Shown: positions 20,529 to 40,300 of the stretch, piece by piece
Position numbering within the stretch: the stretch's first letter is position 1
Layout: each line of letters begins with the position of its first letter
Translations under genes and position numbers: made by a program
Notes under the pieces: generated by a model
What the model saw: only the letters and a program-made list of their open reading frames with translations
Databases searched by the model: none
Told to the model about the DNA's origin: nothing
NCBI GenBank assembly: GCA_013368375.1
Contig: JAACJP010000046.1
Coordinates: 1-64,000 of the forward strand
Origin: Tricholomella constricta
Taxonomy: Eukaryota; Basidiomycota; Agaricomycetes; Agaricales; Lyophyllaceae
Length of the DNA: 64,000 nt
Direction of reading: 5' to 3'

Positions 20529-23500
20529 ATGGATCAATCCACGACGGAACACATCGACACAGAACGCCCACCAGCTGTGCAAAGCCTTCGTTCGAGATTT
20601 GAACAATTAGCTGTCAACCTATCTCCCAAATCGCACCATAGGCATAGCAGCGGAAACACAGGGGACTTGCTGGCACCAAGGACGCCGGGGAGCCCACGGC
20701 CGCGAGCATCGTCCAATACACAGTCGGACGAACCCTCGGGCACCCACCATCTTCGGTCATCCTCATCCTCGTCCGACCTCAAGGTCGGCACGAAAAGACC
20801 GCCGCCGCCACCACCGCCTTCCCGCCCTTCGAAGGGTCTAACTGGCTCCCCAACTCCTGCATTGTCGCCATCACCGCTGCTTCGACCTGTTCCTGTTCCA
20901 CCTGGAGCTCATGGAAGCCCTCGCTTAGGCTCGTCCAGTCTCCCAACGAACGGTTCTGTACCAACCATAATATCTCTCGAATCTGAATCCTCTGGGCAAA
21001 GCGTTTCTTCGCTGAGGCATAAATTGTGAGTCAGGATTGGCAGGTTTGCAGAGATTCAATTGGCCTCAGGCTGACACTCTGAAATAGCGCTAATACACCA
21101 TCCATACCCCCACGTCAAGGCTCTAGCATTGTATACCCTACCGATACAAACACAGCAAGTACAAGCTCTCTAAACAAGCCACCCGTCCCACCTCGTCCAA
21201 CAAGATCGGATCCAACTCTTCTTCAGTTACCCCAATCGCAAAGCCCCGAAGGTTCTGATTCCTCCATTGTTGCATCCAGTCTGCGCACTATCAGCCCCTT
21301 TTCCGATGATGAAGATTTAGAAACCCCCACTGCCCCACCCGCGCTTCCTACCAGGAGACACCACGTACATCACCACCATCAACACCATGGATCCAGTGCA
21401 CATTCCAGCGAATCTAGCGTGACTACCAGCGACAGCGATCTTAGCACGAGCTCACTCCCACTGCCTAAATCTTCTCTTCCTCCACGACCTCCATCCCGCT
21501 TTCGCAGGCCAGCTTCCCCTGCGACCTATGAAGCTCCATTTACAACCTCTCCAGCCAGCTCATCTTCTACCTTAGGCCCTCCACCGCTGCCTGTCCGACG
21601 TTCTACCATCGCACAGTCCGAGGAAATCGCTTCTGGCACTCCCCCCCGTCTCCCCATCCGTCCGCTCGCCATTCCAGCTCATATTGGCCTACCGGACTCA
21701 CCAAACCCCTCACCGACCTCCGCCATGGATCGCAAGCCATTGGGTTCTGGCCGGCTCCCCCCTCCGCCCACCCGGACTATCGCTCTTGGCGATAAACTTC
21801 CTCCTCCGCGGCGACCGCCGTCGCCGACATCAGATGAGGAGTCTGGAGAAGAGGACGACCACAAGGTCCATCTGGTTGATACTTTACCTGATAGTTCTCG
21901 TTCCTCTCGGCGCCCACCCGTCCTGTCCTTCCGCGATGCCCACACCGAGCCTAATATTCATGTCCACGCATTCTCGGGGATCGCGTCGGTCGCAGGAACA
22001 ACCGCAGTGGTGGCCCACAACCACCACATCAAAATCTACGATTTGGCACTGTCTGATGTTCCAGTGCACACGGTCGACACGAAAGACATGAGCACTAGAG
22101 ATGTAAAAATCACGAGCATGGAGTTCCGGCCATCCGCCAAAAAGCCCGATCGGGGCTTCGTCTTGTGGCTGGGCACGAAGGAGGGCCACATTTTCGAGCT
22201 GGACGCTCGGACGGGGGGGATAGTCGCGTCGAAGCACTCGGCGCACCTCCACGCCGTAACGCACGTATTTAGGCACGGCCGCAGCATGATTACTCTAGAC
22301 GATTCGGGCAAGGGGCTTATTTTTTCGCCGGATACCAATGGGGAGGATATATCCCTGGCGTATACCCAGCCACGCGTCGTACGGATTGCGGAGAAGCAGG
22401 ATTTTGTGAAGATTCTTGGAGGCAAGCTATGGACCGCTGCGCGGAGTGACTACCAGATTATCGCGGGCGCATTGAAGATGCCCGTCATCCGCGTATATGA
22501 TATATTCGCGCTGGGGATTACGACGAAGGCCCTCATGCCGACGGAGCATGTGGGCACGGTGACGTCTGCGACGATTATCCCCTCGCGACCAGGTTTTGTG
22601 TACATGGGGCACGAGGCGGGCTTCGTGTCGATATGGACGCTGGAATCGGAGGATGGACACCCCAGGTGTCTTGAGGTAATGAAGATTTCGACTTCGGATG
22701 TGTTGAGCGTGGAGGGGGTGAACGACCGACTGTGGGCCGGCGGGAGGGGCGGTATGATTTCGGCGTTTGATGTGTCGCAGAAACCTTGGGTGGTGACGAA
22801 TTGCTGGACTGCGCACCCTGGGTTGCCGGTGTTGAAGATGTCGGTGGATCATTATGGGATTGATAAAATTGGGCGGCTTTGTGTTATCAGCATTGGGAGG
22901 GACGAGCAGCTCAGGCTTTGGGATGGACTTCTTGGTTTGGATTGGGTTGGTAAGTCATAATTTCTTTGTTTGCTATCGGGACAGTTATTGATGACGAGCG
23001 TTCTGTCCATAGATGATGAGCTTTTGAAACAGGAGCACTCGTTCAGTAGGACTCGGGACTTGAAAGTGCTTCTTGTCTCGTGGAACTGCGACGCTGCACG
23101 GCCAGACTCTATGACCGGTGACACCGCAAACATCACCTTCCTCCACGATGTATTACAAAGCGTCGACTCGCCAGACATCGTCTCTTTTGGCTTCCAGGAA
23201 GTCATTGACCTCGAGAGCCGCAAAATGGCTGCCAAAAATGTATTGCTAGGCTCAAAGAAGAAGCTCGAGGATGGTGGATTGTCCGAAAAGGTCACTGGTG
23301 CTTACAGGAGGTGGTATGACCGCCTAATTATTGCCATGCGACAAGCCATGCCAATGGACGAGCCTTACTCGGTCATCCATACTGAGAGTCTGGTTGGTCT
23401 GTTCTCCTGCATCTTCGTGAAGCAAACCGAGCGTGGACATTTGAGGGATGCTTCCATTACCACGATCAAGAGAGGCATGGGTGGGAGGTATGGTAACAAG

Positions 23501-34706: not shown

Positions 34707-37399
34707 TTACTGTAACTCAGCCGGAAGTGCGTCGTACCTAAATAAGTGTTGAGGACAACTGGTCCTAAAGGATACATTGAACACTTACGTGGGGCAAAGC
34801 TCCTTCCACTGCTCAGTCGGGCGAACGATCCTGCCGAGGTCCGCAGGGTCTGAAAGCATGACAGTAGCAAGACCGGCTTGCAAGTGCCAGAAGATATGGC
34901 AATGGAACATCCATGGTCCTGGAGGAACAATGCATAAGAATTGTCGTCACAACAGGAAGCAAGCCAGTTACCGAAGTTGTCGGTCCTGAAGCGAATGGTG
35001 GTGCCAGACCCACCGACTCCAGCAACCTGGATCATTCCAGAAGTTAAAGCAGAATTTACGATAGGTTAAGGAACCTTACATCACGACGAATAGGATTGAC
35101 GGTGTTGGTGACGTTAGAGGTCATGGATTTGATGACCCAGAAGTTGTTCTAGAATCTGATCAGTACATGGGTGAACAAGGCTAACGCAGAACTTACGCCG
35201 TGCAAATGGAAGGCTGGAGGAATTTCGATAAAAGGTGCGGTAAAGAACAAAAGAAAGGACACTTACGATGGGCATCATCATCGTCACTGAGAAAGGTGTT
35301 AGTGATCGCGGTTCATAGAATAGACGAAACTTCGCACGTCGGAGGGAAGATAATTTGAATAGTCTTGTCGGCGGGAAGAATGAAGGTGTTTTCGGTCTCA
35401 TTGAACGAGGCAGCCGTAGTTGCTCCTGCGAGAACTTTCGAAAGGGTTGGGACTTTCGGTGGGAGGTAAGAGATGCCGTTGACATTCCAGATAGCCTTTC
35501 CAGCAGTCTGAAGGCCAATGTCAATGAAAAAAATCTCCATAACGCAACATAAAACATACCACGACGAGGTCGAGCGTAATGTTGACATCGGGTTCCGGAG
35601 GCTAGAAGCAACGGTCAATTTATCGACTCCAGTTTTAATCAGAGACCGTACAGCAATGTTGAACAGAGGCTAAAAATCAATCAGTATTGGGTTCAAAGCA
35701 ACTGCTGGATGAACACATACACGAAGGTCAGCTTCGAGGAGGGACACGCCGTCTGCAGGACCAAGGGTCATAGGCGTCGTAGGCTCAGCATCAGGAGCTC
35801 CTCGGTAGCGCAAGATGGCTCTGGAAAGGGTTGCATTTTCTAGCAAGAACGTCGATGATGGTCAGAACAAAGGATCAAAAGGGTGACGGGAGAAAGCTTA
35901 CGGTGAAGATTGCGCGAAGGCAAGCCACCGACGAATGGTGCGTTGATCCAATAGTTAGCAACAGGTTGGTTAGCGGTGAGCTATGAGAAGTTATCGATCG
36001 CGATACACATAACGCAGTCTGTGTCACTTACCACGACAGAGTAACGTTGCCCTGCAAGCATTTCAAGAACATCGACCGTGTGGGGCTGAGTCGCAACGCC
36101 ATCAGCCTCAATGACCGCTAATGTTAGTGTTAGTCATCTGCCCCCATGAGGGATGGCGTCGAATGCCTTACTCAAGGAGTGCTTGTCAATGGACATAGTG
36201 AAAACGTTTCGGGCCGACTGATTGATGATCCGAAGTCGGTAGCGCTTGCCAGATACCACGTGCGTAACCGAGAAGGGAACGGCAGGTCCGCCTTGGAAAC
36301 GTCCAGCGCCGTTGACTGTGCCGGAATCAGAGACAGGAACGATTCCCGTAGCCTCGTATCCTGCAAGCAACGGGAGGGTAGAGTTCTGCCACCAATCGCC
36401 TAGAGTTACCCCCCCGGTACATCAGTATATGAAGTGACAAAAAGACGTGCGCCGCTTGCTTACCGACTTGAATGATCTAACAACACCATTAGTCAAATCA
36501 TTGGTACATCGAAGAACATTGGCATACCGTAGACTCGTCATCGACGTCGTAGAAATGTCGCAAGGGGTCCTTGGGGTCTAAACCATGGTCAATCAATAAT
36601 GGAAATAAGTCCGCAGTGCGTTTCTAACCATAGATAATCAGCGGCCCACGGAGTCCCTGCAAGTAATGTCAATATAGCATAAAGCATTTTTCAGTCCAAA
36701 TGAAGGCCGTACATCCACATATTGAACGCTTAATTGACTGATGAAAACGAAGTGTAAGAAAAAGATGAAAGGAAGCCAAATTCAGAGCATGCACCTGTGG
36801 TACCAGAAAGTTCCCGTCTGGGAACCCAGTGGAAGCGTATAGGTATAGCTGCCACCCGGAGCAATGGGGCACGCAGTAACAAAGGGCGTTCCCTCGTCGA
36901 AGGCATCCGCAGAGCTGACAAAGACACCATCAAAGTCCTGAGAGAAGGGGTTAGAGATTGGACGTCCTGTGGGGGCCTTGTACACTTACCATGGAGGTAC
37001 TACGACGCATGGTAGGGTCGGTCTTGGACGGATGGTGAATGTTTGGAGACTTCCGTCAGGTGAATGAACTTACGAGTTTATTGTTGACTGTCACCCGCAG
37101 AGTTTGTCCTTTGGTCGCAAAGATCGGAGGGCCAGGGTATCTTAAATGATGGTCAATTGAGGATACACTCTCGTCGAATGTCATACTTACGTTCCGTTTG
37201 CGACGATGGTGCCTACGAGGACAGGATAAGTCGCGAAAGAGGACATGAATGGCGAAATCTTACTCCTAAGGAAGCCATCTGGAGCCAAGTCCTTGTTGAC
37301 GATGTCAAGAGTGACCGACTTGACGTTGCTCTCAATGGCGAGACCAAGCGCAGGGCTCAAGAGAGCCGAAACAGCTGTGGATGCGAGGAAGAAATGCAT
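34707..37399 (-). CDS. Secreted laccase-like multicopper oxidase lacking trinuclear-site ligands
   Basis: Around fifteen exons from ATG 37399 to TAA 34707 rebuild a full fungal laccase. It has a signal peptide (MHFFLASTAVSALLSPALGLA), APDGFLRSTIVANGTYPGPP, LTDPTMRRSTSM, FVTACPIAPGGSYTY, QTGTFWYHS, VQYVDGLRGPL, three cupredoxin domains and the usual end CPTYDALPAELQ. The type-1 copper motifs are intact: HPFHLHG is split over 20-nt and 17-nt exons (35267..35286, 35197..35213), and HCHIFWHLQAGL lies at 34884 onward. In motif 1, however, the invariant HWHG is DFDG (36926..36937), and in motif 2 the second His of HSH is Gln (CAA at 36734..36736). Three of the eight histidines binding the type-2/type-3 cluster are therefore gone. 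Oxygen reduction should be abolished while the type-1 site may survive. Clean splicing and no stop argue against simple decay. Confidence 0.88.
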
Positions 37400-40300
37400 G
37401 ATTGAGCACTTGAGGACTTCAAGTCTAAATTTTGCCCCCTTTTATACCTTCAGGTCAATCTTCTCGAAGCAGGGGGAAAAATATACAGAGGCATTTTTCC
37501 CCAATGCTACAGCACGTGAAAAGCACAGAATTGAGGCATAAAGCAGATATCCACAGTTAGATACGAAGTCGTCGTGGGTACAGAAACTAAGGCATCGTTT
37601 CGGATTGGACAACAGTGAACGCTCTTGGGCCACACAACGAGATTGTTCTGATCGTGGCAAGGAGAAGCTGGATAGAGTTCGACTGAGAGGAGACGAGAGA
37701 CGGCGCCCAAAGCCAAGGATGGAAAGGCCGACCAGTAAAGTCGTCGACAGCTTTCAGCGGCGCCCGAAGAATGTTATTTGGCCACACAGATAATATTAGC
37801 CAGTGGATTCGTGGAAACAAGGACGACCAAAGAATGTTGCCTCATTGGAGGAGGTCAATTTAATTGAAAGCGTTGTACGAACGTTTGCCGCGCGGTACCG
37901 ACGCGCGAAGTGAGGAAGGATTCGCGTTGCACATGGCATATTGAAACGCTGCACGGCGTGTGAGTTGCGGTATTTATCGACTGGGTAGCTCGGGGGAAAA
38001 GCGTCTCATCACGTGTGGATTTACCATGTCGCCTTCCAATCAGCATTACAGGTATTCATCATCCAAGTCAAAAACCGAACGCACCTTCACACTTCGTGGA
38101 GTGTCATCGTTGTCGACCAGCGTCCAGTGCCTTCTAAAATAGCCTTACAGACACCAACGATGGCAGAGATTGACGGGAGCAAAAAGATGCTGCTGATCTA
38201 CCAGAACACTGGTAAAGCGATCCCTCAAGGTCGTGCGTTTAGGCAAGGCCTACACATAGGATAGAGACCTAAAAGATCCAAGAATAATCCATACGGTACC
38301 ACGACTGGAAGAGATGGTACTGCGAAGTCGCCGCGGGATGTGGAAGGCATGAAGCGACTGAAGTAATCCAGATCTCGATGGGAAACGCCAACCTCGTTGG
38401 GCCTTTGAACGGCAAAAAGATCCAAATATCTATACTTCCGAAGGTGGCTTGATAGAGTGAAGAGATTGAAGTAGCAGAGAAGGGGGGAAATAGAGATAAC
38501 GACTGTCACCGGTTATATGTACCCGTGCCACAAAAATCCAGATCCAGGTATTCACGATTGTCGAGGTCAAGCGACAACCCAAGCCCAACGCCAAGAACGG
38601 GGTGATGTCTGTTTGGGACACATGCGTCAAGCATACAGACACCATTAGAGACAAATACGGCGCAATTCCTCCTTTCGGACTGCCGCCACACACAAGCGTG
38701 GATGTCATAGATAACCTGGTCGTTTTGAAATTCTCTGCCGGGATGCTTTAGAAATATTTTAACAAATCATTGAATACGCACCCGACAGTTAGGGGGTCGG
38801 ATTCCATGCCTTTAGGAGATGGTATCTGAGGTGAAAGAGTCGGATTCGGACCAGTTCACACACGACGGGGCTTTGATTGTCCAATCTTTCGTGGACGATT
38901 TGAGACAGGGGACAGAGTAAGAGTAACAGAGCTACAGTGATGGATCCGTGCACAAATGTTTGCAAGCTGTACTTGTACAACGAGGCCAGTCCAATTTTTA
39001 TGTTTCAACTACCGCGCAGACCGCTCACAGCATGTATCTGAGAGGCAAATATTCATAGTGGCGCTCTCGTCTGGGATACTGATGATTCCATACATGGCGA
39101 GCTATCTTCACAGCAGGCAGCACGTGGGGCTGGAGCACAGCCCAGGAGAGCTAAGTATAACATGAGGAAAAAGAAGAAATGGGATTGGTGTGTGTGTGGC
39201 TTATTCGGCATGATTTGGCTTTGGAATAACAGAGTACCCATTCTCACTCCATCTTACCCACAGCGCCATCTCGGAGAAGAGTTGCTGACATGAACCACGT
39301 CGGGATTTTCATTCCGGGTTCTCCTTCCAGTTCCATATTCTCCCACCAACCTCAGCATCGTATCAACCAATACATCAAGGACGGGGCACGAATAATCTGC
39401 AAGATCGATTGTCTCCGCAGTACGAGGCGCAATATTCAACATGAGCTAGAGAGGACACGGGTGAGCAGATGAGGAGTGGTTAGCCATTGTAGACTTCACT
39501 TTATCATCGGGCGGCCCTGAGTCCGTAGTCCTTGTCGTTGACTCGGAAAGGACACTTAAATTTTTCTTTCAAAAAACAGAAATGAGGTTTTAGTAGTTGT
39601 AATTCAAATTATGAGATCACGAGTAAGCCTCTGTGCTAGAGTCTTCCTCATGGACATGAATTCTTTGTAAAACTCCCGGTGATGTCAGAGATGGTTAGCC
39701 TGGCTCACACGCGTGGAGACCTGCACCTAACCACTCCGTGAGGAGTAATGGACAAGAAAAGGTGTCTCCGCGGTTATCCTGCGTAGTCTGGGAAATATTG
39801 TAGATCTGGAGCAAACGCGAGGGAACCTATTGCTTTATAGCTATCCAGTCGGCATGGCATCAAAGCAGATTGGGGAAAACTCACCTTGAACGCGTGGGTC
39901 TGAGATGCTCGTCAATGATACTCGTCGCGGCGGATGCAACAGTGTCATTTTGTCACTCAACCTCAACAGGAGAAAAATGATTATCATGAAAGTTCGTGAT
40001 GCTGATTACTTTCCGACACGTCTGCAAAAAAATGCGTGCATCATCGAATAATTTGACGACGCATATTTCTGTGTGAAAAGGAAGTACCGATCGAGGAACA
40101 CCTCATGCCATGTATCAATCCAGTCTTTGCATCGGTGCGAGCACACACTACAAAAGTAGAAATCAATCTTGAGCTAATAATAGAAAGTGTTTAGGCGTGG
40201 GGCTTACCATGTTGGCCTGCTGCGGTTATAGCAGACATTCGTGAGTTATTTCTTGGAGCGTATCTGTAGACACGAAAAGGAAGTACCGCGTATTTGTTAG

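Follow-up and report, generated by a model that had tools for sequence, protein, structure and literature searches.

An NMCO-class multicopper oxidase gene of Tricholomella constricta with one histidine lost from each copper of the trinuclear site

The 64,000-nt stretch of DNA analyzed here (the window), from Tricholomella constricta (Agaricales, Lyophyllaceae), carries a multicopper oxidase gene whose product keeps the type-1 copper ligands and lacks exactly one histidine ligand at each of the three coppers of the trinuclear site. By textbook accounts, multicopper oxidases need all eight histidines of this cluster. The gene fits the descriptions published for a class of fungal proteins termed "novel MCO" (NMCO), and is not of a new kind, as its loss pattern is already in print. 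What our analysis adds, judging from alignment with known ligand roles, is the loss of one histidine per cluster copper, the near-invariance of one introduced Asp, and the retention of five histidines and one carboxylate. Such a regular change of one ligand per metal, found in at least 31 genera (counted by eye among the matches listed) and under purifying selection where this was measured, provides a natural experiment on a cluster with oxygen donors.

Hand splicing of the gene (Table 1) gave 22 exons and 21 introns of 48 to 64 nt, all 21 of them GT..AG, and a coding sequence of 1,581 nt that is open throughout and encodes 526 aa, in agreement with an earlier reading of the letters alone (the first-pass annotation), which had described a gene without stops and with orderly introns. 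A protein-guided spliced aligner, with P0002 (84% identity) as the guide, returned a product identical letter for letter to the hand-spliced protein; 9gly, whose title identifies it as a reconstructed ancestral laccase, was also used as a splice guide. The Pfam families Cu-oxidase, Cu-oxidase_2, and Cu-oxidase_3 were all above their cut-offs in the window protein. The TATA box noticed earlier is present, and the signal peptide proposed along with it is probable from a hydrophobic stretch within the first 30 residues. The best database match, D9615_009594 (P0001) of T. constricta, is the same gene with its first intron unspliced; the deposited protein contains 17 extra residues from this intron, which are absent from P0002 and from the model of a paralogue on contig C9. 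AlphaFold2 was applied to P0002, which is not the window protein, with 71 sequences (pLDDT 89.8, pTM 0.89), and the best PDB match of this model in Foldseek was 9gly (TM 0.88, 2.0 Å, 49% identity), with laccases occupying the top ranks.

Table 1. Features of the NMCO-type gene, with positions in the window
Feature	Position	Strand	Basis or remark
NMCO-type multicopper oxidase gene	34707..37399	-	hand splicing, spliced aligner, Pfam
TATAAAA, 47 nt upstream of the ATG	37440..37446	-	sequence
Probable signal peptide, about residues 1-21	37337..37399	-	hydrophobic stretch only
First intron, 51 nt, in frame	37213..37263	-	retained in deposited P0001; absent from P0002
Intron immediately 5' of DFDG	36938..36989	-	hand splicing
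DFDG (residues 87-90) replacing HWHG	36926..36937	-	ligand roles from PMC2064922
Glu101, at the place of proton-donor Asp77 of laccases	36893..36895	-	Glu in 119/121 NMCO rows
His133, the kept type-3 ligand (His109)	36797..36799	-	118/121 rows
Gln135 replacing type-3 ligand His111	36734..36736	-	sequence, alignment
Arg236 at the Asp205 position	36209..36211	-	121/121 NMCO rows, 118/120 NLAC rows
HPFHLHG (T1, T2, T3 ligands), split by intron 35266..35214	35197..35270	-	splicing
HCHIFWH (T3, T1 Cys, T3, T1 ligands)	34884..34904	-	splicing
Phe483 in HCHIFWH, replacing the proton-donor Asp of HCHIDWH	34884..34904	-	alignment

The first-pass annotation had read motif 1 (L1) as DFDG instead of HWHG and motif 2 (L2) as YHSQ instead of YHSH, with the type-1 copper motifs HPFHLHG and HCHIFWH intact, and all four readings hold in the spliced protein. 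In the Lentinus tigrinus structure, as described in PMC2064922, the ligands are His64 and His397 for T2, His111, His399, and His451 for T3(a), and His66, His109, and His453 for T3(b). The type-2 ligand His64 is replaced by Asp87, and the type-3 ligands His66 and His111 are replaced by Asp89 and Gln135, respectively; because these roles place the three histidines on separate coppers, T2, T3(a), and T3(b) have each lost exactly one. The protein keeps the cluster's five remaining histidines, a neighboring carboxylate, and the Cys-His path for electrons. At T3(b), the near-invariant Asp and the two kept histidines form a 2-His-1-carboxylate set. No string coding for HWHG or YHSH is present at 34 to 38 kb of the window, and the sole HWHG-type codon string in the entire window is some 11 kb away, at position 23346 of the minus strand. 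A hidden HWHG exon was rejected, as there is none in the gene region.

Relatives were collected with two protein searches (the best 120 of 2702 and the best 120 of 2313 matches), which gave 131 proteins and, with the window protein, an alignment of 132 rows. Among the matches listed, His is found at neither of the lost L1 positions in any row (0/132), and at the lost motif-2 position in a single row (1/132), that of P0123, which is aberrant at motif 2. Homologues with the same pattern were recovered, with 77 of the 132 rows displaying the exact eleven copper-site residues of the window protein. The hosts of the relatives among the matches listed are Agaricales, Russulales (Heterobasidion, Stereum, Amylostereum, and Vararia), and Ramaria. 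At least 20 of the 131 (counted by eye among the matches listed) are on contigs of 1.9 kb or less that encode the whole protein and leave no more than about 310 nt of possible intron sequence, and these are probably spliced transcripts because the contigs are too short for some 20 introns.

The residue counts given below for 121 rows exclude 11 of the 132 (P0001 and ten rows gapped or broken near the motifs), which lifts conservation, while the weighted figures are from all 132 rows. At the His66 place, 120 of 121 rows have Asp and the remaining one has Glu; the weighted conservation of this Asp is 99.3%, and a level of 99% is attained by just 12.9% of all columns. The His64 place is occupied by Asp (81), Asn (33), Ser (5), or Gly (2), and at the His111 place Gln predominates (94), with Glu in 19 and Asp in 4 rows. 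Weighted conservation of the kept histidines is 97.6% for His109, 98.8% for His398 and His400, and 100% for His452 and His454. According to PMC10741624, two Asp residues near the cluster act as proton donors in laccases. The place of the first is occupied by Glu in nearly all NMCO rows (Table 1), and that of the second (D456-type) by Phe (111), Tyr (5), or Met (5). By the thresholds used, the positions with one fixed state in NMCO and a different one in both NLAC and laccases number just seven, and three of these, Asp89, Glu101, and Phe483, are at or beside the cluster. Cys is absent from the C205 place in all 121 rows and from the C117 place in the 120 of 121 rows shown, with the C85-C488 pair kept; the alignment indicates that the C117-C205 disulfide is gone as a unit, both of its cysteines having been lost jointly. 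With six of the 132 rows dropped, an acid at position 111 (24/126) never occurs alongside Asp at position 64 (84/126), and 18 rows carry no acid at either position. This apparent swap amounts to about four changes on the tree and was not significant in an independent-pairs test (median p 0.5), and we regard it as a possible lead.

PMC8480192 describes 29 NMCO sequences without three Cu-coordinating histidines and states that all nine NMCO-bearing genomes also carry NLAC. The review PMC10741624 repeats the loss, reports Arg at position 205 for many members, and leaves the relevance of these proteins to experiment. In the window protein, likewise, three of the ten copper histidines are absent, all from the trinuclear site, Arg236 occupies the Asp205 position (PM1 numbering), and the host belongs to the Agaricales. 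Its genome also harbors NLAC genes, on contigs C21 and C45, which have Arg at position 205 together with HWHG and HSH. In a tree of 63 rows, 36 NMCO rows are found on one side of a branch with support of 100/99, apart from 15 NLAC rows (99/96) and 11 canonical laccases (100/100), one of which is 9gly, the reconstructed ancestral laccase. Nothing distinguishes the window gene from this class, although PMC10741624 gives the replacements as basic or acidic and one of those seen here is an amide (Gln). The gene thus fits as a further member of the NMCO class, placed by the published descriptions of the class. The range of the class extends beyond the Agaricales and Russulales named in PMC8480192, as P0113 of Ramaria rubella (Gomphales), like P0108, is an NMCO-type protein; P0113 has Met at the His111 place.

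Laccases sensu stricto couple the oxidation of phenols or ABTS to O2 reduction and have HWHG in L1, HSH in L2, the full set of ten His and one Cys, and two disulfides, whereas the window protein has DFDG, HSQ, and C85-C488 without C117-C205, its only cysteines being residues 109, 480, and 515. The residues of a blue type-1 copper site are all present (His426, Cys480, His485, and the axial Leu490), in a three-domain cupredoxin fold as judged from the P0002 model. NLACs (POXA3-like heterodimeric laccases) share the Arg at the Asp205 position but differ in having complete copper ligands, with HWHG and HSH kept in nearly all rows, and both disulfides. The window gene and the C9 paralogue have an identical 22-exon layout with all 21 intron positions in common. 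Of these 21, 4 to 5 recur in the two NLAC genes compared and 2 in the three canonical laccase genes; a position was counted as shared when column and phase agreed exactly, a measure that varies with the alignment.

The first-pass annotation had stated that no described group displays this exact pattern, which proved wrong, not only because of the NMCO descriptions in PMC8480192 and PMC10741624. Shiitake Lcc9, Lcc13, and Lcc14 were described in 2015 (PMC4573974) as lacking the L1 His-Trp-His and having Gln for the L2 His, with the type-1 histidines kept, and a different affinity for T2/T3 copper was suggested. Lcc13 is secreted and comes with expression data, its mRNA being 1,042-fold higher at the colonizing front (PMC10130320); it belongs to another species than the window gene. 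The L1 histidines are also missing from laccases 10 and 12 of Amylostereum areolatum (AaLac10/12; P0053 and P0079), reported in PMC7700495, whose sequences read NFDG and HSQ and differ from the window protein in having Asn for Asp at the first L1 position. This matters for annotation: "laccase" is the name under which such proteins are deposited, and PMC7700495 took the Amylostereum proteins for typical laccases and docked lignin models to them. Insect MCORP (PMC4203857) similarly keeps the multicopper oxidase fold after loss of copper ligands, but it has lost far more of them, is confined to insects, and showed no oxidase activity. No structural, metal-content, or kinetic study of an NMCO was found in the open-licence literature, supplements aside.

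The claim that the gene is maintained was borne out by comparison with the C9 paralogue, which gave a dN/dS of 0.106 at a dS of 1.66 (Nei-Gojobori). Of three canonical laccase pairs, two gave 0.110 and 0.116 and the remaining one 0.349; saturation made the dN/dS of the NLAC pair unusable. The window gene is maintained and is not a decaying copy, because its losses are common to its relatives, the NMCO clade is well supported (100/99), and dN/dS is 0.11. Chance, a lone broken gene, and a private sequence error were rejected, as the same losses are found in relatives. A separate locus, C32:346867-349483, holds a second, closely similar version of the C9 NMCO gene in which there is an internal stop and the 3' end is altered; its dN/dS against C9 is 0.757, based on few differences (dS 0.029), and C>T or G>A changes at CpG make up 20 of the 78 counted base differences. 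This sister copy is a real pseudogene.

With our confidence about evenly divided, we read the NMCO class as having a functional type-1 copper connected to a metal site that has been rebuilt. The protein would be a secreted three-domain multicopper oxidase with a normal blue type-1 copper, which would still accept electrons from an extracellular reductant and pass them to a site binding fewer or different metals. Ordinary four-electron reduction of O2 would be weakened, or other O2 or peroxide chemistry would take its place, possibly at the growing front in litter or wood. The conservation of the five histidines, the near-invariant Asp, and the nearby Glu favors a rebuilt site, without proving it, over both a relic and a protein with type-1 copper only. 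Four of the five kept cluster histidines adjoin type-1 ligands, and their retention may have a different cause; the weight of the argument therefore falls on His109, which stands apart, and on the Asp. More specifically, but as a tentative proposal, the NMCO site may be a mixed-ligand cluster in which each metal has exchanged one histidine for an oxygen donor and one position is fixed as 2-His-1-Asp, connected to an intact blue copper, with chemistry other than four-electron O2 reduction and perhaps a non-copper metal.

The first-pass annotation had proposed a mono-copper electron-transfer protein or a copper carrier. An extracellular type-1-only protein of this kind, with an empty cluster, is a possibility that we consider rather doubtful: it would account for each cluster metal being short of one ligand, for the Phe, Tyr, or Met at one of the two proton-donor positions, and for the retained type-1 set, but an empty cluster offers no reason for 97.6 to 100% conservation of the five histidines or for Asp in 120 of 121 rows. 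The proposal therefore survives as possible and is the poorer fit.

That NMCOs are still working laccases, binding enough copper through carboxylate and amide groups to reduce O2 slowly, seems unlikely with two L1 histidines, one L2 histidine, and a proton donor gone. Lcc13 was nevertheless identified by LC-MS/MS (26% coverage) in the ABTS-active fraction P2-2 (4.9 U/mg; PMC10130320), a result that speaks against regarding the class as inactive, Lcc13 being matched to it by description (PMC4573974) and not by sequence. P2-2 was only partly purified, as were P1-1 with Lcc5 (1.1 U/mg) and P2-1 with Lcc6 (11.4 U/mg), and Lcc5 and Lcc6 are present in the same extract.

It is less likely still that the protein has no catalytic role and acts as a partner of the POXA3-like novel laccases (NLAC), or that it is a binding protein similar to insect MCORP, which is essential despite having lost its copper residues and oxidase activity (PMC4203857). 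The co-occurrence of NMCO and NLAC in the nine published genomes, in the T. constricta genome (C21, C45, and five matching places on C15), and in 25 of the 31 NMCO genera (by eye, among the matches listed, best 120 per list) is consistent with a partnership, but may reflect a shared lifestyle, and a pure partner would not need metal residues. Gene linkage is lacking as well, the NLAC genes being on other contigs. None of the 10 neighboring open reading frames scanned (of 81 of at least 140 aa) is laccase-like, and an explanation by gene clustering was rejected on this ground; five of the 10 matched a Pfam family above its cut-off, such as isopropylmalate synthase, phosphatase, RA domain, ankyrin, and AIR carboxylase. 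Decay, or an artefact of assembly or splicing, is refuted for the class and very unlikely for the window gene despite the pseudogene on C32, as the pattern occurs in 131 relatives, all 21 introns are shared with C9, dN/dS is low, and the two disulfide cysteines were lost together.

Several observations concern other laccase genes of this genome. The matches on C15 (at about 20-24, 110-114, 192-196, 247-250, and 288-292 kb) correspond one by one to the exons for the NLAC protein P0172 and occur in both orientations, which suggests recent amplification of NLAC genes on this contig, whether or not the copies are intact. The N-terminal extension of the deposited P0172 (D9615_005647) seems to be wrong: within residues 1 to about 104, the expected start MVRLF is internal, as it is in P0156. 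Three consecutive canonical laccase genes with all copper motifs readable are present at C16:745926-756162, and one of them, C16c, has Ser at the 205 position, where laccases have Asp or Glu.
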